Of a DNA stretch of 64,000 bases, positions 27,204-36,729 are shown piece after piece. The notes beneath the pieces are model-generated. The model was not told the DNA's origin, did not search any database, and was given only the letters and a program-made list of their open reading frames with translations. Position 1 is the stretch's first letter, and every line of letters starts with the position of its first letter. Source of the DNA: Yersinia ruckeri ATCC 29473 (GTDB lineage Bacteria > Pseudomonadota > Gammaproteobacteria > Enterobacterales > Enterobacteriaceae); contig NZ_KN150747.1 in the NCBI RefSeq assembly GCF_000754815.1, positions 3,239,328 to 3,303,327 on the forward strand, in the 5' to 3' direction. Position numbers and translations under genes: made by a program.

Positions 27204-27911
27204 TTATTTACCAATCTCGATTATCTTCTCTAGCCTTTCATAGATCTCATCTTCTCGCGCTTTATCACCATATGTATGACTTTGAATTGCATAATCGAAA
27301 TCATTCAATTTAAGAAGGGCTTCAATTTGTTGACTAATATATATTTTTAAATCATTTTCCGCTGTAGATATTTCATTTACAAGCTCTGATCGGCCATCAA
27401 CTAAATTGAGAATATCTTCAATATCGCGACTTTCTAGAGGATCCCCCCTTCCACGGCCATTGTATGCTTCCAATTTAGTAGCAATAAAATAAACAGGACT
27501 TATCAAATTAATACTTAGCTCAGGTGCTAAGTTAAAATAGGTGCTTGTTTCCATTGCTTTCCTATACCATCGGTTAGTAAAACCTAATACACTTTCATCA
27601 TCTGGCATAAAATCAACTCGCAAATCACCAAGCTTCATTGCACAAATAGGCGCACCATCGTCATCAGGCACCTCAATTTTAAATCCATGCGCTTGAAGCT
27701 CTTGCTGAAGTGCTGAATAATTTGTATAGCTCATGACATGCATAATGAGATCAACATCATCGGTGTGGCGTATTTGTTCCCGAGTAAACTCATCGGTGAC
27801 TAAAAGACTTGTCGTACATCCCCCAACAAACGTCATTTTCTCACGTAAATCAGAGCCTAATGCTTCAGCAACACGCTGGAGCATATCTAATTGAATCTCA
27901 CTATTAATCAT
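27204..27911 (-). CDS. AbiEii-like nucleotidyltransferase
   Basis: A 235-residue protein with the motifs of the AbiEii/MenA-type nucleotidyltransferase toxins: FVGGCTTSLL (28-37), the Asp-x-Asp motif TDDVDLIM (50-57), a third acidic strand LRVDFMPD near residue 97, and a KLEAYNGRGRGDPLESRDIED segment near residue 150 (given in part). Such enzymes typically modify tRNA 3' ends, but that is family knowledge, not shown here. It overlaps the upstream HTH gene by 4 bp (ATGA). Confidence 0.7.
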   Translation of the reverse strand: MINSEIQLDMLQRVAEALGSDLREKMTFVGGCTTSLLVTDEFTREQIRHTDDVDLIMHVMSYTNYSALQQELQAHGFKIEVPDDDGAPICAMKLGDLRVDFMPDDESVLGFTNRWYRKAMETSTYFNLAPELSINLISPVYFIATKLEAYNGRGRGDPLESRDIEDILNLVDGRSELVNEISTAENDLKIYISQQIEALLKLNDFDYAIQSHTYGDKAREDEIYERLEKIIEIGK

Positions 27912-28570
27912 TGAGTTACTTCCATCTGTTTCATCAACATACCTGATGCTAAATTACGTTCACGCGGTTGTCCAATACGTACAGCATCTATGAGCGCTAA
28001 CAAAGCATACATTTCAGGATCTCGCCGAACCGCATAAGTTGCCGTTTTAAATAAAGGCTCAACCGATTGGCCCTTGGTATTACCTTTCGCATCAGGCCAA
28101 ACAGGGATGACATCTCCCGCCCCCATCAGCTTTCCTTGCAGTACCGGAGCACCAATTGATGTTGCAATGCCTCGAGTCAATTCTCCTGATCTGGTTGGGA
28201 ATATGTATCTCAATCCATATATAATGAGTTCGAAAAGTGCTTTGACATTGGTACGTGGTACACCTAATTTTCTGTCCCGCTTTACAAGACCTACTGAGAT
28301 CATATCTTGCAGAGATAAACTTACCTGACTTTTACTTATTCCTGTTTCGGCAGCCAAAGCCCTAACGCTGTAACGCTCCACAAGCCAGTCATCAACAGAC
28401 GTATCAGGCGTCAGTAGATTGGTTGTAGGCGTATACAAATCCTCCGCAGCTTCCCAATCCCACCAAATATTGGAAGCTAACGCGAACGAATTCCGCTGAT
28501 TTTTTAGTCGACTTTCTTGCTTTTGCAAGCAAATGAGTTTTAGCATCAAACCAACATCTTGACTTTTCAT
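27908..28570 (-). CDS. Winged-helix/HTH regulator of the nucleotidyltransferase operon
   Basis: The start at 28570 (MKSQDVGLMLKLIC) has GGTGG just upstream and gives 220 residues. An upstream in-frame start at 28642 would run through the predicted promoter and operator, so I reject it. The HTH is VRALAAETGISKSQVSLSLQ near residues 80-100, followed by a C-terminal domain conserved in regulator-nucleotidyltransferase pairs. By analogy with AbiEi it may be both autorepressor and antitoxin. A 30-bp palindrome covers its promoter. Confidence 0.65.
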   Translation of the reverse strand: MKSQDVGLMLKLICLQKQESRLKNQRNSFALASNIWWDWEAAEDLYTPTTNLLTPDTSVDDWLVERYSVRALAAETGISKSQVSLSLQDMISVGLVKRDRKLGVPRTNVKALFELIIYGLRYIFPTRSGELTRGIATSIGAPVLQGKLMGAGDVIPVWPDAKGNTKGQSVEPLFKTATYAVRRDPEMYALLALIDAVRIGQPRERNLASGMLMKQMEVTQ

Positions 28571-28585
28571 TTTCACCACCCAATA

Positions 28586-28615
28586 ATTGTCCCAAGTCCT
28601 AGGACTCAGGACAAT
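28586..28615. promoter_or_regulatory. 30-bp palindromic operator of the HTH-NTase-PP2C operon
   Basis: Thirteen of fifteen base pairs match around the centre 28600/28601: outer arms ATTGTCC / GGACAAT, inner core AGTCCTAGGACT. It overlaps the -10 element and the likely transcription start of the operon, so it fits an autorepression site. Confidence 0.7.
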
Positions 28616-28642
28616 GTACTTATTAATTTTCCATCTAGTCAA
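28613..28642 (-). promoter_or_regulatory. Promoter of the HTH-NTase-PP2C operon
   Basis: On the minus strand, -35 TTGACT (28637-28642), an 18-bp spacer and -10 TACATT (28613-28618). The transcription start would fall inside the palindrome, 36 nt before the start codon. Confidence 0.55.
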
Positions 28643-29403: not shown

Positions 29404-29548
29404 TTATTCAGCAAATCCAGCGTAGCAATCAGACGCTGGTTTTTTATTTCGTAATACCCACCGCTTATGGTTATCCTGGACGTTAAACCAAAACTCGGGA
29501 TTAGTATCGAAGAATGCTGCTAGCAGTGATATTTCCTTAGCATTTATC
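29404..29548 (-). pseudogene. higA-like antitoxin gene, 3' half (split by an insertion)
   Basis: The frame NAKEISLLAAFFDTNPEFWF followed by NVQDNHKRW matches the C-terminal half of HigA-type XRE antitoxins. The 5' half lies at 33677-33835 on the same strand. Joining the halves at the shared GATAAA sequence gives one uninterrupted frame of about 97 residues, the usual HigA length. The gene was therefore split by the 4.1-kb element 29549-33676. No higB toxin gene is seen next to either half. Confidence 0.8.
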
Positions 29549-29573
29549 TGTATTAGTTCAAACTCGACCTGAC
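29549..29573. repeat. Left terminal inverted repeat of the retron-bearing element
   Basis: A 25-bp repeat beginning TGTATTAG and ending CGACCTGAC, inverted relative to 33652-33676 with 24 of 25 matches. It abuts ATTTATC, the probable target duplication. Confidence 0.85.
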
Positions 29574-29816
29574 AGTTTTCTCGGAAAGAACACAATCAAG
29601 TCTGACTGTCGGTTGTGAGCGAGAAAGAGACATCTAACCTTCTTAACGAATGATTCGTGGTAGCACTACGAAAGTGCCTAGATTAGCCGCAGTAATCCAA
29701 GAAGAATAAGTCACGCGTCCATATTTTTATCAAAAAAATCCATGATGCAAAACAGCGCTTGTATCTTTCTTAATAAATAGTAGCATTACTTTTTCCCTGA
29801 AAATCATCAATCTAAA

Positions 29817-31178
29817 ATGAATATTAGAAAAATAAAGCAGTCCAGATTTGATTCTCTAGCGGCGTATGCGAGGGACCCTCGGGCAAAAACCTTTGGCAGG
29901 GAGATCGCTTGGTATGAAACTGAAGACAAAAGTATTGTTTCATGCATCATACAAGATTACACAGATAAAGATTTTTTCGGGATATTAATGGCGCGTGATG
30001 AATCTGAACGATACCGTTTTATTGATAATTCCGAATGGAATGAAAATTTTGCTCTTTCTGAATCCGCCTTGTTGACCAAAATACTAGAAATACATGAAAA
30101 TATTGATAAGGAAAGATTGCAAGGGGGGATTCATAAGGCCCCGGTTGATTTTTTTATTCCACTAATAAAAACAAAAAACAAACTATCTCCTCTTTTCAAT
30201 GAGTTGGTATCTAATTCATTATTTGCTTCTGCAAAGAATATTATTGAACCCATGATGCGTTGGTATGAAGATACCGATGGTAATTTTGTAGAGCAATTTC
30301 AGACAACAGGTTTTAATCAACGAATATGGGAGCTGTATCTATTCGCTCTTTTGACTGAAAATGATATAACATTCAATCAGAAAGAAGCTATTCCTGACTT
30401 TATTTGTGATAGCTTCCATGGTGAATTTTGCATAGAAGCTACAACTGTCAACCCTTCAATAATAGAGGGTAAAGATGAAGAATTGCCACAATATCACAAC
30501 TTAAAAGATTTGGAGGATATAAAGAATAACTATTATCCTATAAAATATGGAAGTGCTCTTTTTTCAAAACTTAAAAAAAAGTATTGGGAAAAGCCAGCTT
30601 GCAAAGATAAGCCTTTAGTTTTTGCTATCACAGACTGTCTCTGTCCTGCTTCCGGTAAAGATTCCAGGGCATCATTACCATATTATCTTTATGGGTACAG
30701 ACATGAGGCCAAAGTAGACGATAGTGGGAGTGTGACAATAGTTCCTGTTAAGATCGAAGAGCATACTTGGGGAAAAAAAGTAATACCTTCAGGTTTTTTT
30801 AATCTTCCAGAAGCGGAAAATATTAGCGCTGTGATTTTCTCTAATGATGCATCATTTGGAAAGTTCAATCGTATGGGACTTCTAAATGAATTTGCACCTG
30901 AAGGTTCGGAGATGATTAGGACGGGACTTAGAATTAATCATGATGTCAATGCAATAAGGCCTCAATCATTTAGCCTGGAAGTCGACTCTCCTTCCTACCA
31001 TGAGCAGTGGAGTGAAGGTCTTGAGGTTTACCATAACCCTAACGCTTTACATCCTCTATCTAGGAATGTATTTCAAGAGGCCGCGAATCATTATTTATTA
31101 GCTGATGGGCAAATTAAAACATATTTACCAGACTTTCATCCGCTTGGTTCAATTACTAAAGTAAAACATTTAGAGTAA
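29817..31178 (+). CDS. Putative PD-(D/E)XK-superfamily protein, unknown function
   Basis: A 453-residue protein that I cannot assign to a named family. The segment RIWELYLFALLTENDITF ... IPDFICD ... GEFCIEATT (residues 169-210) has the layout of a PD-(D/E)XK nuclease core: E172, D194 and E207, with Thr/Ala where Lys is usual. The N-terminal 130 residues and C-terminal 200 residues show no known motif. It is convergent with the retron RT and shares its element. There is no good Shine-Dalgarno sequence at 29817; codon use is AT-rich. Confidence 0.55.
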   Translation: MNIRKIKQSRFDSLAAYARDPRAKTFGREIAWYETEDKSIVSCIIQDYTDKDFFGILMARDESERYRFIDNSEWNENFALSESALLTKILEIHENIDKERLQGGIHKAPVDFFIPLIKTKNKLSPLFNELVSNSLFASAKNIIEPMMRWYEDTDGNFVEQFQTTGFNQRIWELYLFALLTENDITFNQKEAIPDFICDSFHGEFCIEATTVNPSIIEGKDEELPQYHNLKDLEDIKNNYYPIKYGSALFSKLKKKYWEKPACKDKPLVFAITDCLCPASGKDSRASLPYYLYGYRHEAKVDDSGSVTIVPVKIEEHTWGKKVIPSGFFNLPEAENISAVIFSNDASFGKFNRMGLLNEFAPEGSEMIRTGLRINHDVNAIRPQSFSLEVDSPSYHEQWSEGLEVYHNPNALHPLSRNVFQEAANHYLLADGQIKTYLPDFHPLGSITKVKHLE

Positions 31179-31221
31179 GCGTTAGTATTTATTTTAAAAA
31201 GGCTATTATATACTATTTGAT

Positions 31222-31251
31222 TATCGAAGGTGGGGCAACCCACCTTCGATA
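31222..31251 (+). terminator. Perfect 13-bp hairpin after the PD-(D/E)XK-like gene
   Basis: TATCGAAGGTGGG pairs exactly with CCCACCTTCGATA across a GCAA tetraloop, 43 bp after the stop. There is no T-run; it may be a terminator core or an mRNA 3' protective structure. Confidence 0.6.
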
Positions 31252-31265
31252 TATGTCAGTAACGT

Positions 31266-31286
31266 CCGCTCCGTGCCAGAAACGGA
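31266..31286. repeat. 21-bp inverted repeat flanking the retron, left copy
   Basis: The reverse complement reads TCCGTTTCTGGCACGGAGCGG and matches 33595-33615 at 18 of 21 positions. The pair encloses the RT gene and its RNA. Confidence 0.55.
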
Positions 31287-31322
31287 CTTAAGAATTACAG
31301 CGGACATGGTGGCTGAATAGTG

Positions 31323-31357
31323 AAAAATCAGTTGTTAGCTGTACTCAACTGATTTTT
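31323..31357. terminator. Bidirectional terminator between the retron RT and the convergent gene
   Basis: A 12-bp stem AAAAATCAGTTG / CAACTGATTTTT with an 11-nt loop and T-runs on both strands, 72 bp after the RT stop. Confidence 0.8.
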
Positions 31358-31429
31358 CTGTAATTATAATGCTATGTATTGACATACGTGAAGTGAATGA
31401 AATGTGAATCGAAAGAGCAGCACGTCATA

Positions 31430-33268
31430 CTATTCTTTAACAGTATCATAATGGTTTATAACTTTTTCTAAACGTTCTAGAAGACTTGTAAATCCACTAA
31501 AATCAATATCATGCTTTTTGGCATGAACAATATGCGTCGCGAATGATTCCTTGCTTAAGTCATTATCAGGATCACGTTTTGAAGCGGTATTGAAAACTTT
31601 TCCTTTATGCGGCCTGAGTCTATCTGTATCTGTAAAAAAATGTTCTATATCAGTTTCCGCATATCCCTTAATCTGAGGTGTAAGCACTAAGTAGAGATTA
31701 TGAAAAATATGTACAAATTCAGAAGACCGGATATCCATTAATCCTGTTGGGGAAATTTTGATATCATTAATCTTACTGACATAATTGATCAAGTCTTTTG
31801 GGCCGCTATCATTATCAACAAATATAATTACTGGATTAGATGGTTTTGGAGCTTTGTAGTAATTAAAGTTATTTTTATAATGAATAATAAAATCCTTTAA
31901 ATAATCAGCGCCGCCATAGAGTTCCAGTAAATATTTTGTTCGCTCATTATAATCAATAAAATTTGTAAGTATTTTATACGGGGAACTTGCGCTTTTCACT
32001 ACAGCCAGTTTGGGGAATAATGAGGCTAGTTTATGTATTGCTGCCTTTAAATAGACATTATCGGTTTTACCTTCCGTAAGGATTGTTGGTAAGTTGTTAC
32101 CATAAAACAAACGATAGAATAGAAATTTACTAAATGTTTTTTCTCTTGAGTTATGTAAGCAACGCCTGCTTTTGGCTTGGCCTTTTTTAATGGCGTCTTT
32201 TTTTAAATGGTATTTTGGATTTAATTTTTCACCTTGGCGTAGTCGATTGTAGTGATCGATTTGATCTATGAAATTAAGCTTTCCTTCAAGGCGATTGATA
32301 TTCCCTTTTGTTTCTTTACTATCAATTATTTCTACAAATTCACCGTTCTTAAATAAATGATTGCACTGAGCGCGTACAAGCCTCCAATATTCTTTTTTTG
32401 TATTAGGTTTTTTATTTACAACCAAACCTGTTACTTCTTGCCTTGAGTCTTTGTACTGATTTCTTGTTTTGCTTTCATTAATTATAAAGCCTGAAAGAAT
32501 TATTTCATTTCTAACTCTCTTACTAATAACATACTTGTTATTTTGTTTTTTTGCTATAGAAGAAGAAAAGTCGCTCTTTCTTGTTGAAAATGTAATGTCA
32601 TCAGCATATCTCGTATATGTAAATGAATTTTTTTTTGCTATTGCAGCTAGTTTAATATCTAAAGAATGAGTGATTAGATTGGTAATTACTGGGGAGCAAG
32701 GGCTACCTTGGGGGAGTTCATTATTGCAGCAAGCAATTTTAGCAATTACAGTGGCAATTTCTGGATCAAGTAAAAAATTTCTATTTTTTATGAAAAAGCC
32801 TCGAACTCTACCGAAGTTAAAACTCCCAAAAAAATCCTCTAAGTCTATGTTAAAAACATACTTCTTACCTAAATGCATCATTGCATTTGTTATAATCGAA
32901 CGCTTTCTTTCAAATCCATGAGATAGCGAAGGTTGTTTTATTTCGGCACTAGAGCATTTTATCTTTAATATTTTTGAATTTTTTGCTTTCTGCCTTGCTA
33001 GTTCTGACTCTGGAAACTTATTATGAATAATTTCGTCTAAGCAATCGAGTAACAGTCCTGATAAAGATGACTGAATCATCTTCAATATTCCGTTAGGAGC
33101 GTTTATTATCCTTTCACCGCCATTTTTCTTTGATATTTTAAACTGAGTATATTGATTTTCAGGTTTTAATACATATAGGCTGTATGTGAACGCTGACGGC
33201 TTGATTCCTAATAGTTTAGCCAAATCAGGCTTTGTTTTTGCTTCTTTCAATGATTGTAGTCTTTTCAC
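31430..33268 (-). CDS. Retron reverse transcriptase with C-terminal TOPRIM domain (Ec67-like)
   Basis: A 612-residue protein. RT motifs: NAMMH (128-132, the retron NAxxH motif), FNIDLEDFF (motif A, D142), ELPQGSPCSPVITN (184-197), catalytic YADD (221-224) and VTGL (279-282, the retron VTG motif). A TOPRIM domain follows: ILTEGKTD (396-403) and VDNDSG (484-489). The fused RT-TOPRIM layout is that of retron Ec67 (Retron-Eco2), a known antiphage system in which the TOPRIM part is the effector. The GTG start at 33268 has AAGGTGA upstream and lies 17 bp after the ncRNA a2 repeat. Confidence 0.92.
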   Translation of the reverse strand: MKRLQSLKEAKTKPDLAKLLGIKPSAFTYSLYVLKPENQYTQFKISKKNGGERIINAPNGILKMIQSSLSGLLLDCLDEIIHNKFPESELARQKAKNSKILKIKCSSAEIKQPSLSHGFERKRSIITNAMMHLGKKYVFNIDLEDFFGSFNFGRVRGFFIKNRNFLLDPEIATVIAKIACCNNELPQGSPCSPVITNLITHSLDIKLAAIAKKNSFTYTRYADDITFSTRKSDFSSSIAKKQNNKYVISKRVRNEIILSGFIINESKTRNQYKDSRQEVTGLVVNKKPNTKKEYWRLVRAQCNHLFKNGEFVEIIDSKETKGNINRLEGKLNFIDQIDHYNRLRQGEKLNPKYHLKKDAIKKGQAKSRRCLHNSREKTFSKFLFYRLFYGNNLPTILTEGKTDNVYLKAAIHKLASLFPKLAVVKSASSPYKILTNFIDYNERTKYLLELYGGADYLKDFIIHYKNNFNYYKAPKPSNPVIIFVDNDSGPKDLINYVSKINDIKISPTGLMDIRSSEFVHIFHNLYLVLTPQIKGYAETDIEHFFTDTDRLRPHKGKVFNTASKRDPDNDLSKESFATHIVHAKKHDIDFSGFTSLLERLEKVINHYDTVKE

Positions 33269-33284
33269 TATATCACCTTGAAAA

Positions 33285-33421
33285 ATGGTTTATGGGCACT
33301 CTTACGCAAACTTGACAAGAACCTCGAGTAGCGCGGAGAACGTGAGACCCTGAAAGGCAATCCTATCGGACATTTTTTTCACTGATCGCGAAACGCGATC
33401 CAAAATCTGCCCATAAACCAT
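33285..33421 (-). ncRNA. Retron msr-msd RNA
   Basis: About 137 nt, directly upstream of the RT gene. The 14-nt a1 repeat (33408-33421, RNA ATGGTTTATGGGCA) is perfectly complementary to a2 (33285-33298). After a1 comes GATTTTG, then a 7-bp msr hairpin GATCGCG-TTT-CGCGATC (33384-33400) followed by AGTG. The likely branching guanosine is the G just after a1 (33407), by analogy with Ec67, whose GGCAGATTT, hairpin and AGTGCC landmarks I recall as similar. The copied DNA would start near 33301 and run to about 33370. Confidence 0.85.
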
Positions 33422-33594
33422 CATTACCATAGCAAAACTTAAAGAATATACAATTAACAAATTCACCTTAATGTGTATGGTCTTTACTAGTGTGATTAAT
33501 ATCACGCTTAGCTGTGAACCTTAGATCTCAAACTTTGAGTAAATCCTGAAGGCGTTGAATTGCTTATACAGAAGTAGGATATTTTTGAGCAACA

Positions 33595-33615
33595 TCCGCT
33601 TCTGGCACAGAGCAG
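33595..33615. repeat. 21-bp inverted repeat flanking the retron, right copy
   Basis: TCCGCTTCTGGCACAGAGCAG, inverted partner of 31266-31286. It lies 36 bp inside the right terminal inverted repeat of the larger element. Confidence 0.55.
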
Positions 33616-33651
33616 CCTGTCAGATTAGGTATAGCTCTGTGATGTAATAGG

Positions 33652-33676
33652 GTCAGGTCGAGTTTGAGCTAATACA
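33652..33676. repeat. Right terminal inverted repeat of the retron-bearing element
   Basis: The inverted partner of 29549-29573 (24 of 25 matches). It lies directly inside the 5' half of the split higA-like gene. Confidence 0.85.
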
Positions 33677-33835
33677 ATTTTTTATCCGACCAGTTCCTTC
33701 ACAGATCGCCCTAACCCGCTCAATAGAAAGTCCAAGCTCTTCAGCAAGCATAGGCTGACTAATATTGGTTGGGTTCATAAACTCCTCAACCAGCATGACA
33801 GCTACAGTTGTAGGCTCTCGTGAAATAGTATCCAT
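33677..33835 (-). pseudogene. higA-like antitoxin gene, 5' half (split by an insertion)
   Basis: The frame starts MDTISREPTTVAVMLVEEFM and has the XRE helix-turn-helix ISQPMLAEELGLSIERVRAI typical of HigA. After CEGTGRI the frame runs into the inserted element and stops at 33653. The rest of the gene is at 29404-29548. A divergent palindrome upstream (33859-33883) may be its operator. The truncated product keeps most of the HTH, so residual DNA binding cannot be excluded. Confidence 0.8.
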
Positions 33836-34256: not shown

Positions 34257-34838
34257 ATGTTAAACGACTCTTTAATAAGAAAAAATTTAATAGATTTTCT
34301 TTCCAAAAAAAAACCATCTCCAACTAGCATTGTGGAAGAGTTGCATGTACATAACGGAAATGCGATTGCTGACGTTGTTGCCATTTATAGCCACTTACAT
34401 TGCTTTGAAATAAAAGGAGAAACTGACTCAGTAAGTAGAGTATTGGTTCAATCTAATTTTTACAATACTTCTTTTGATAAAATAACCTTAGTAACTACAG
34501 CCAATCATATGCCTTGGGCATTAAAGAATACTCCTTCATTTTGGGGTATTATTGTTGCTGAAGAAATTTCAGATGTAGTAAAGCTAAGATATAAAAGAGG
34601 GGCAAGAAGCAATCCATTCTTCTGCAAAGAAAAAGCTCTTATGATGCTATGGAAAGATGAACTTAAAAATATAGCATATACATCTAAATTAAAAATAAAG
34701 TCTTCTGATACAAGAAATGACTTAGCTAACAAAATAGGCGATATTCTGCGAAAAGATGACGCTTTAAATGCTATTCAAAGCGCCATAATGAATAGAGAAT
34801 CATCAAGGAAGACTTCGTACGATATAAGTAATATGTGA
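34257..34838 (+). CDS. sce7726-family-like protein (PD-(D/E)XK nuclease-like)
   Basis: A 193-residue protein. NAIADVVAIYSHLHCFEIKGETDS (positions 35-58) carries D39 and the E-x-K pair E51/K53, the PD-(D/E)XK nuclease signature seen in sce7726 and MmcB-type proteins. The following VQSNFYNTSFDKITLVTTANH fits that fold. A Shine-Dalgarno GAAGGT precedes the ATG. Its last 36 bp overlap the 3' end of the convergent beta-family gene. sce7726 genes are often paired with sce7725/beta-like genes; the function is unknown. Confidence 0.65.
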   Translation: MLNDSLIRKNLIDFLSKKKPSPTSIVEELHVHNGNAIADVVAIYSHLHCFEIKGETDSVSRVLVQSNFYNTSFDKITLVTTANHMPWALKNTPSFWGIIVAEEISDVVKLRYKRGARSNPFFCKEKALMMLWKDELKNIAYTSKLKIKSSDTRNDLANKIGDILRKDDALNAIQSAIMNRESSRKTSYDISNM

Positions 34839-35888
34839 TGTTAACATAGCTTTAATCCATGAGCCTGGACTACCAGCCTTAGCAGGTTTTTTAATTGAAA
34901 AGTCACTACGCTGATGAGTATATTTCTCACCATATGAATCAGTTATATTTCTAAAAAAACGCTGTTCAGCAATAGTAGTAGCTATTTTAAAATATTGTCC
35001 ATTCCCGTCAGGATCATTTTGGAAAGAACCACCTCTTACACCTAGATAATTACCTTCAAAAGTATAGAATACCTTAGGCGTAGACACTTTTCTCATTAAC
35101 TTAGGATCAATATCCAAGTCTGAATAATCAGGGCTAACAATACCATAATCGCCGTATACCATGAGAGGAGTTTCTTTATCCTTAATTAAGTTGCTCCATA
35201 TTTTCCATTCACTTCTTGTAATAACTTTGCTTTCATATGTCGTTAATATTTCAGCTATATTTGCAGGAATAGTTGATCCCGTAACTGAAATCATTTCAAA
35301 CGGATAATCTTTAGTAATACTTTTCAAGAAAGATGCCACTTTATGCGTCAACTTACTTACATCAGTAGGCAATATATATCTAAGGTCTATCAATAAATGG
35401 ATTTCATTTACACTAAGATTTTTTAGTTTTCGCCAAATAGGACTAATTGACAACTTAGTTATAGTATAACTATCTATATCTTCATATGATAATCTGAACG
35501 CGACCTTACCACCGTGATTATGGATATATTCAAAAACAGCTTCATTGTGCTCTTCATTCCGGTCTAATCCAACAACCGGTATAATATTATATTCACCAAA
35601 AAAACCTAAAATATAACGGTACTGTTCATTTCCATTAATTAAAATATCTTCATCTAAATCATAATTATCAAGATAAAACTCAATAGGTTCTTTACAGTCA
35701 TAAAATTTACTTAGACTCTTATTAAATGTATTTATTTTTCTTAAAATCACATCTTCACTTTGGTTTTTACTTTCTCTAGGTAAATCAAAAAAAGGCTTGA
35801 CCTTATTTAATATATCACCAGATAATTCTGATAATGCTAATACCTCATTGCTTTTAGCTTTTAAAAACGGAATATATTTAGTCATCAA
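34803..35888 (-). CDS. Beta-family / sce7725-like protein
   Basis: A 361-residue protein beginning MTKYIPFLKAKSNEVLALSEL, the opening typical of the phage beta-protein (PF14350) and sce7725-type families. It is predicted soluble; the repeated alpha/beta pattern recalls a TIM-like fold. Its start overlaps the ImmA/IrrE-like gene by about 11 bp, and it is the last gene of the three-gene operon. Families of this type recur in defence islands, without an established mechanism that I know of. Confidence 0.65.
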   Translation of the reverse strand: MMTKYIPFLKAKSNEVLALSELSGDILNKVKPFFDLPRESKNQSEDVILRKINTFNKSLSKFYDCKEPIEFYLDNYDLDEDILINGNEQYRYILGFFGEYNIIPVVGLDRNEEHNEAVFEYIHNHGGKVAFRLSYEDIDSYTITKLSISPIWRKLKNLSVNEIHLLIDLRYILPTDVSKLTHKVASFLKSITKDYPFEMISVTGSTIPANIAEILTTYESKVITRSEWKIWSNLIKDKETPLMVYGDYGIVSPDYSDLDIDPKLMRKVSTPKVFYTFEGNYLGVRGGSFQNDPDGNGQYFKIATTIAEQRFFRNITDSYGEKYTHQRSDFSIKKPAKAGSPGSWIKAMLTSHITYIVRSLP

Positions 35889-36729
35889 TCCCTAATTCCT
35901 TTCGTATATTAATAGAGTTAACTAACTCAGAGAATATATAATAGTTTTTAAACTTATTCCTGATCGCACCAGCAACAATTATAGGATGTAGGTTTAAACT
36001 ATTACTGACTGATAATAGATCACTAGGGGAGTCTTTTAGTCTATATACAGTTCGTGCATATTTTCTAGGTATTAAGCTATCAGCAGCAACTCTATTAGCT
36101 TCAACCTCTATTTCAGAGTCACATGTTATATCTAAATCATCAAGAATAGGTGTAGTCAATTGCTCATAGTGCAAACAAACATGAGATAATTCATGCATTA
36201 AAGTAAACCAAAAATTATCATACCTAGAGTATCTTAAGCTCAAGGCTACAACAGGTGTTCCATCAAGTAGACAAAAGCTGCATCCATCTAGTTTCATACC
36301 GGTAAATGCACGCTCTATTATTAATATAACTCCATAATTATTTAATAAGAAATCATCAATCCAATGAATTGAACTTTCGTCTAAACTTAATTTAGCAATA
36401 TTACTTAAATCATCAAAACTGATATTTCCATTTTTTTTAAAATCACTATTAAATCGATAGTTAATAGCTTTATTTTCTATGATAGAAAACCAAGTATTTA
36501 TAATATCAAAATTGGCATCATCTCTCTTCCGATACAGTTTTTTTGAATTATTACTTATATTGAGAGCTAATTTATAAAGAAAACCGGAATCCCCCTCATT
36601 AGAAGGCTTGTCGCTTAATATCCTTTTTAAATTTTTACTTTTCAACAATTTATCAAAATTTAGTATTACATCTTCTATTTTCGAACCACTTTGAGGTAAT
36701 ACCTTGAAATCGTCATCATTATTATGCAT
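35878..36729 (-). CDS. ImmA/IrrE-family metallopeptidase
   Basis: A 283-residue protein with the zinc-peptidase motif FWFTLMHELSHVCLH (HELSH at 179-183) and a downstream glutamate in EIEVEANRVAADSLIP as the probable third ligand. The preceding strands (VVALSLRYSRYDNFWF) match the ImmA/IrrE class that cleaves repressors. No HTH is fused, so its target must be another protein. It overlaps both neighbours by 8-11 bp, showing a tight operon. Confidence 0.8.
   Translation of the reverse strand: MHNNDDDFKVLPQSGSKIEDVILNFDKLLKSKNLKRILSDKPSNEGDSGFLYKLALNISNNSKKLYRKRDDANFDIINTWFSIIENKAINYRFNSDFKKNGNISFDDLSNIAKLSLDESSIHWIDDFLLNNYGVILIIERAFTGMKLDGCSFCLLDGTPVVALSLRYSRYDNFWFTLMHELSHVCLHYEQLTTPILDDLDITCDSEIEVEANRVAADSLIPRKYARTVYRLKDSPSDLLSVSNSLNLHPIIVAGAIRNKFKNYYIFSELVNSINIRKELGIDD

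Follow-up and report, generated by a model that had tools for sequence, protein, structure and literature searches.

It is an open question by what means phage-defence genes are turned over at fixed places in prophages and islands. Within the stretch of Yersinia ruckeri ATCC 29473 that we analysed (contig NZ_KN150747.1; 64,000 nucleotides, hereafter the window), a 4.1-kb element carrying a retron interrupts a HigA-like gene. What put this element there, and did its cargo arrive with it? An interpretation made from the letters alone, the sequence-only reading, had proposed a non-autonomous defence-cargo transposon moved in trans. The IS481-type repeats, the 7-bp duplication, the target signature and the empty sites described below agree with that proposal, the mobilisation itself being what we infer from them. 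We consider it highly probable that the element is built in two layers, a non-autonomous IS481-type frame and site-specific exchange of cassettes at inner cores. In the outer layer, a non-autonomous transposon of the mobile insertion cassette kind, with terminal repeats of 25-26 bp, would be inserted by an IS481-family transposase acting in trans, and the 7-bp duplication would result. In the inner layer, site-specific recombination of L with L and of R with R would swap, in place, the cargo between two dyad cores, which lie about 74 bp from the ends and have asymmetric centres (L: TGAGCGA; R: TGTGCCA). The window's frame would now be carrying a PD-T7-1 cassette together with an Ec67-like retron cassette.

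The terminal repeat TGTATTAGyTCAAACTCGACCTGAC stands at both ends of the element (29549-33676) with one mismatch, just where 25-bp inverted repeats identical at 24 positions had been described. A 24-base pattern of it, allowing up to 3 mismatches, had two matches in the window and none in 100 shuffles, and it found no third site in the whole 3.77-Mb host assembly; at the same tolerance the repeat was present in 3 of 25 genus genomes, the host included. The genome search for the repeat yielded the full element of Yersinia aldovae and transposase-bearing IS relatives of about 1.2 kb. In Y. aldovae the repeats lie at the identical point of the HigA-like gene between perfect 7-bp copies of GATAAAT, so the right copy in the window has three extra T; the proposal that ATTTATC and ATTTTTTATC form a target duplication with growth of a T-run is thereby borne out. 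Three congeneric loci (L046, L047 and L048) have the gene intact, with a single GATAAAT and no terminal repeat, and in each of them a single open frame reads RINAKEISLLAAFF through GATAAAT. The predicted HigA of about 97 residues thus exists as an uninterrupted frame, but it is 89 residues long in L046, and since this intact homologue scores 46.7 bits against TIGR02607 (HigA), one bit under the curated cut-off of 47.7, "HigA-like" is a fair label. Genome comparison therefore places the repeats at the boundaries of an insertion. The C-terminal fragment of the gene has a tail longer than, and different from, those of the intact homologues, and judged by this tail it may have changed further after the insertion.

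Table 1 Features of the element and of its target site in the window.
Feature	Position	Strand	Basis
Left target-duplication copy, ATTTATC	29542..29548		Flank sequence and Y. aldovae comparison
Left terminal inverted repeat, IS481-type	29549..29573	+	Repeat pattern search, end alignment
Right terminal inverted repeat, IS481-type	33652..33676	-	Repeat pattern search, end alignment
Right target-duplication copy, grown to ATTTTTTATC	33677..33686		Flank sequence and Y. aldovae comparison
HigA-like gene, C-terminal part after interruption	29404..29541	-	ORF, congener comparison and TIGR02607 match
HigA-like gene, N-terminal part after interruption	33687..33835	-	ORF, congener comparison and TIGR02607 match
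Left frame, 74 bp through L-core centre	29549..29622	+	72/74 identical to Y. aldovae; 24/76 beyond
L core, centre GAGCGA at 29617-29622	29608..29634	+	Core model
Lone internal core separating cassette 1 from cassette 2, centre GTGCCA at 31273-31278	31264..31290	+	Weak R-model match, 12.1 bits
R core, centre GTGCCA at 33603-33608	33591..33617	-	Core model
Right frame, 74 bp	33603..33676	-	72/74 identical to Y. aldovae; 23/76 beyond
Cassette 1: PD-T7-1/PD-T7-5 family protein, 453 aa	29817..31178	+	E 2.3e-167 and 4.5e-42
Cassette 2: retron RT-Toprim, 612 aa, Ec67 type (I-C)	31430..33268	-	Profile and protein identity
Retron non-coding RNA region, fold closed by 14-bp a1/a2 pair	33285..33421	-	Folding

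Two cassettes make up the cargo. The first had been called a PD-(D/E)XK-like gene, a label that was not confirmed: its protein had no Pfam match at E up to 0.01 and aligns instead in full length to the PD-T7-1 profile (residues 4-449 to profile positions 2-446 of 452). The retron that had been recognised is indeed present, as an RT-Toprim protein scoring 748.8 bits against NF038237 (Ec67 family; cut-off 450), with its a1/a2 RNA region. It belongs to type I-C and shares 84% protein identity with the Ec67-family retron of E. coli H6. Ec67 is also named Eco2; the window's retron differs from it in sharing one frame with a PD-T7-1 cassette. The motifs YADD and LTEGKTD/VDNDSG are visible in the protein. 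The RNA region folds well (33270-33440, z -3.79), with none of 200 shuffles folding as well; Rfam gave nothing on the element up to E 1, and on eight loci at the gathering threshold nothing besides tRNA and traJ-II. Judged by family, both cargo genes are probable anti-phage systems. The genes adjoining the element match PD-Lambda-2_C (34803-35888) and PD-Lambda-2_B (35878-36729), and the site accordingly resembles a portion of a defence island. Elsewhere in the window, a 193-aa protein (34257-34838) matches the PADLOC profile "cll" (E 6.3e-23), and a gene pair at 27204-28642 is weakly AbiE-like, with an AbiEii-like nucleotidyltransferase match below cut-off (E 0.0028) beside weak winged-helix matches.

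A search for an IS481 transposase inside the window element found no match, in line with the claim that the element lacks a transposase. The consensus repeat pattern (up to 3 mismatches) had matches in 68 of 295 genomes of the order, some of them as pairs about 1.2 kb apart with an IS481-family transposase gene between (profile NF033577: E 7.7e-86 for L017 and 3.4e-83 for L019). By tblastn, the transposases of L018, L019, L024, L025 (two) and L026 are 82-91% identical to that of L017, the one in L026 being in two pieces (91 and 88%). These IS copies share with the elements the terminal repeat, the 7-bp duplication and the target signature: the duplication was exact in 7 of 7 copies tested, and in every one its third base is T and its fifth A. 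Among six further IS481-like loci both ends were located only in L118, which also has an exact 7-bp duplication. The ISs differ from the window element in carrying a transposase, and their ends align to the frame ends mostly over the terminal 27-33 positions, the inner part of the frame being absent from them. One genome, G197 (L024-L026), has at least four copies of the 1.2-kb IS plus more repeat matches, and is a candidate active source.

To survey such elements, we built end models from alignments of 13 right (A1) and 11 left (A2) ends, whose mean column identity is 86% on the right and 81% on the left. The right-end model had matches in 40 of 394 order genomes (E up to 1e-4) and in 110 of 392 family genomes (E up to 1e-6). 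From 60 regions, nearly all taken around strong right-end matches, together with 12 earlier loci and the window, we obtained 39 paired elements of 0.5 to 10 kb; the remaining regions had no acceptable partner end in the stretch. An exact duplication of 7 bp flanks 17 of the 39 pairs, or 22 if one mismatch is allowed, and exact duplications of 4-6 or 8-10 bp flank none. When flanks of different elements were paired, 0.39 exact cases were expected, or 0.0 without same-site pairs. The 17 exact duplications fall at 13 distinct 7-mers (T3 in 13, A5 in 12). By tblastn, none of the 39 paired elements contains an IS481-like protein. All 39 have one L plus one R end, a result that is partly by design, the loci having mostly been chosen by their R-end match and 24 ends of the set having built the models.

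Taken together, the shared repeats, the 7-bp duplications, the T3/A5 signature and the lack of any IS481-like protein inside the 39 elements indicate that an IS481-type transposase inserted them from outside. On this sequence evidence, transposition of the frame by an IS481-type enzyme is strongly supported, and mobilisation in trans by an IS481 transposase would follow as a well-supported reading. Some observations count against it. An exact 7-bp duplication is lacking in 22 of the 39 pairs, the window included; the best relative of the transposase in the host assembly has 33% identity and is not a close one; and relatives, taken at E up to 1e-60 and counting fragments, turned up in no more than 22 of the 392 family genomes, against 110 genomes with R ends. 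R ends accompany the relatives in 11 of these 22 genomes and occur in 99 of the 370 others, a modest association (one-sided Fisher p 0.021). Cross-matching of IS ends with the R model was rejected as a cause of this co-occurrence, as IS ends reach at most 18.6 bits. In having the repeats of a known IS, no internal transposase and a 7-bp duplication (imperfect in the window), the element resembles mobile insertion cassettes such as MIC231A1 and mic-qnrD, which have inverted repeats, a target duplication and a passenger gene with no transposase. In the available part of its report (PMC3913671), mic-qnrD differs in its 24-bp imperfect repeats and 2-bp duplication, and inner exchange cores are not described there.

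Such cores are present here. A dyad core lies about 74 bp inside each end and its centre is fixed, GAGCGA on the left and GTGCCA on the right. In majority letters, counted from exact-centre matches only (53 of 69 L and 70 of 89 R), the left core reads GTCnGCTnT-GAGCGA-nnAGCGGA and the right core GkCmGCTyT-GTGCCA-nnAGCGGA. The window and Y. aldovae have the insertion point, the orientation and the outer 74 bp in common (72 of 74 identical on each side, comparable to the 96% identity of the flanks), and from base 75 inward they are unrelated (24 of 76 and 23 of 76). The same insertion therefore holds other cargo in Y. aldovae, as had been thought worth checking in further copies, and with cassettes exchangeable the present cargo of the window need not have come with the insertion. 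The pairing of L and R is not absolute, because the internal core of the window has an R centre where the E. coli retron has an L centre.

In several multi-module elements and islands, the module boundaries are marked by a back-to-back pair of one R and one L core with a short spacer. Imperfect R-core/L-core palindromes of about 75 bp stand between modules (L013 10464-10541, L010 23115-23192, L093, L104 and others), some of them outside IS481-type frames. A 111-base query of the palindrome junction had a partial match in 1041 of 5426 E. coli genomes, with 80% covered in only 6. Within one multi-cassette element (L013, 8325-8927) lies a 200-aa "site-specific integrase" gene, a candidate recombinase; of the 80 cargo proteins, one had a Phage_integrase match among the matches listed (25 of 93 Pfam families).

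The same switch of cargo within a kept frame was found elsewhere. An E. coli island site holds three different cargos (L010, L013 and L052) in frames that are 100% identical over 60 bases, and in the G651/G435 pair (L060, L077) frames 90 and 93% identical surround unrelated inner sequence. Five frame sets were compared, with copy numbers of 2, 3, 2, 6 (5 on the right) and 3. Identity is 78-100% over the 60 bases that lead to the core centre and drops to 39-58% over the 60 that follow inward, near the shuffled control (means 40-52%). A lambdoid left frame is abundant: at least 80% of a 456-base stretch that ends in it is present in 1462 of 5426 E. coli genomes. In five genomes, picked from 40 rows spread through the ranking, the retron is replaced by a DUF7380 gene (annotated incomplete), a DUF262 gene, three hypothetical genes, two hypothetical genes and a DUF5677 gene, respectively, which with the retron of L113 makes six different cassettes in one frame. 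The left frame stops at GAGCGA in every one of the six copies (GGGCGA in L133), and the right frame at GTGCCA in five; the sixth copy, L129, has no recognisable right core.

The reciprocal comparison, one cassette in two frames, was provided by the retron. Window DNA was matched in 17 of 5426 E. coli genomes through an Ec67-like retron, and nine of these 17 loci were examined. Four (L113, L122, L123, L125) have it in a lambdoid prophage adjoining hokD, and five (L114, L124, L126, L127, L128) in a second frame rich in phage genes. The two prophage frames are unrelated outside the cassette, yet the boundaries are the same, and beside both cores, inward of the left GAGCGA and of the right GTGCCA, the cassette sequences are identical or almost identical. 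For L113 and L114, the frames are 46 and 49% identical and the cassettes 100 and 100%, over 60 bases on each side. Between E. coli and the window, the 60 cassette bases beside the cores are 65% identical on the left and 57% on the right, above all 200 shuffles (maxima 58 and 56), and the adjoining frames are 38% on the left, below the shuffle mean, and 53% on the right, equal to the shuffle maximum, as would be expected if that frame is a distant relative. A more distant Ec67-like retron in Proteus mirabilis (L115, NZ_OL790812) is bracketed by R- and L-type ends in an orientation reversed relative to the E. coli frames. Compared in both directions, the breakpoints strongly support site-specific exchange, for which a putative recombinase would be responsible.

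The other cargo is varied. Twenty chosen cargo proteins were scanned singly; nine match PADLOC families and eleven, the Y. aldovae cargo protein among them, do not. L010 carries a second PD-T7-1 protein (34% identical to that of the window over 313 residues) and an Aga nuclease; further matches are LeoBC (L013), AbiTii (L073), KwaB (L020), PDC-S31 (L054), PDC-S15 (L089), PDC-S64 (L061) and Avs5 (L099). Some cargo has no obvious defence role, such as the short-chain dehydrogenase gene of L015. Transposases of other families, Transposase_mut, ISL3 and IS1, occur once each in the cargo (among the matches listed, 25 of 93 Pfam families), and we read them as nested ISs such as ISEic2 in L001. We do not claim an enrichment of defence genes in the cargo: 61 PADLOC families were matched with 80 cargo proteins and 151 with 80 flank controls, both counts being of families matched and not of proteins having a match. 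L055, which duplicates L052, was kept out of the cargo set, as were the window and, for their uncertain ends, L066 and L108; 110 flank proteins were drawn, and the 30 left out were mostly short, one being very long.

Could the cargo have reached these frames by other means? That the terminal repeats are due to chance or unrelated to insertion is a negligible prospect: we found no point in its support, and the empty sites, the target duplication and the homologous elements have already refuted it. A plain mobile insertion cassette, with each cargo arriving by its own transposition and the same-site sets being independent insertions into a preferred target, would account for the 7-bp duplications and IS481 ends, which are real. 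We nevertheless regard it as quite improbable, because the targets are loosely specified (13 different 7-mers in 17 exact cases) and same-site copies share site, orientation, duplication and identical or nearly identical 74-bp frames around unrelated inner sequence; moreover, the cassettes differ all the same where the repeats are degenerate, in the P2 and lambdoid frames.

If the cassettes were exchanged by homologous recombination, of the ordinary or the phage type, across the short conserved ends, no dedicated recombinase would be needed, and the conservation of the ends (86% right, 81% left), together with the finding of no recombinase in the cargo scanned, fits this route. Crossovers within 74-bp ends, however, should leave donor alleles at varying depth, whereas in five frames the switch falls on the core centre at either side, a position that the reciprocal retron comparison also returns, which makes this route unlikely. 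It is very improbable that an unrecognised integron system uses the junctions as attC-like sites. A fold into nested hairpins is possible for the 15 internal two-core junctions; 4 of 500 shuffles reached the covariation score of this nested fold, and 70 of 500 reached that of a two-hairpin fold, which is suggestive only: the sequences number 15, their four arms are mutually complementary anyway, and the count of pairs changed on both sides was reached by 52 of 500 shuffles. The core motif of integrons is GTTRRRY. The cores here are not consistently GTTRRRY at the arm ends, and the breakpoints lie at the dyad centre (GAGCGA/GTGCCA) and not at a GTT box. We thus retain the two-layered reading, in which a site-specific enzyme would exchange cassettes at the cores of an IS481-type frame.

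Exchange at these repeats is partly known already, because the inverted repeats of the P2 Z/fun region (Nilsson et al. 2004) belong to the family. A phage-record search with the right end of the window gave 32 records, including Z regions of P2-type prophages with inverted repeats annotated by the depositors. In the three P2-type records examined (AJ512676, AJ512681 and AJ512685), which the R and L models all match, the annotated left repeat matches R-model positions 1-86 or 1-87 (E about 5e-18), and at the other end there is a match to parts of L-model positions 6-93 (E 3e-15 to 4e-13). Both repeats are annotated in AJ512685 and in AJ512681, the right one of the latter being placed elsewhere than the L-model match; in AJ512676 the left repeat is annotated and another repeat is unlabelled. 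With homologous repeats, the same core centres and the same switch points as here around different cassettes, the three records conform to Z-region exchange cassettes, and they differ in that the P2 terminal repeats are degenerate. A seeded frame could thus lose its terminal repeats, as in the P2 Z region and the lambdoid frame, while its cassettes would still be exchanged. The P2/P4 hotspots, which adjoin cos, are distinct from the Z region. For those hotspots the recombination route is left open in the available part of Rousset et al. 2022 (PMC9122126), and the part of a review available (PMC8987985) credits Nilsson et al. on the P2 Z/fun region. In the literature searched, which comprised titles and the beginnings of abstracts, covered few subscription papers and had Nilsson 2004 outside it, we found no report of an IS481 origin of the frames, of the 7-bp duplication or of the two-layer architecture.

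The sequence-only reading had delimited the element correctly and interpreted it rightly as far as it was taken; the frame-plus-cassette system is the larger finding. Many enterobacteria have frames of the same kind in their prophages, plasmids and islands, and this points to a way in which defence genes can be exchanged in place. As the exchange points are fixed to a few bases and the frames are abundant, the enzyme and its reaction are directly testable, and the frame ends offer a handle for finding new defence cassettes without knowing their genes. On balance we favour the view that enterobacteria share a natural form of recombinase-mediated cassette exchange. IS481-type transposition would seed L/R docking frames in prophages, plasmids and islands, and a putative site-specific recombinase would swap their cargo, often anti-phage, in one orientation, the P2 Z/fun region being one old frame among very many.
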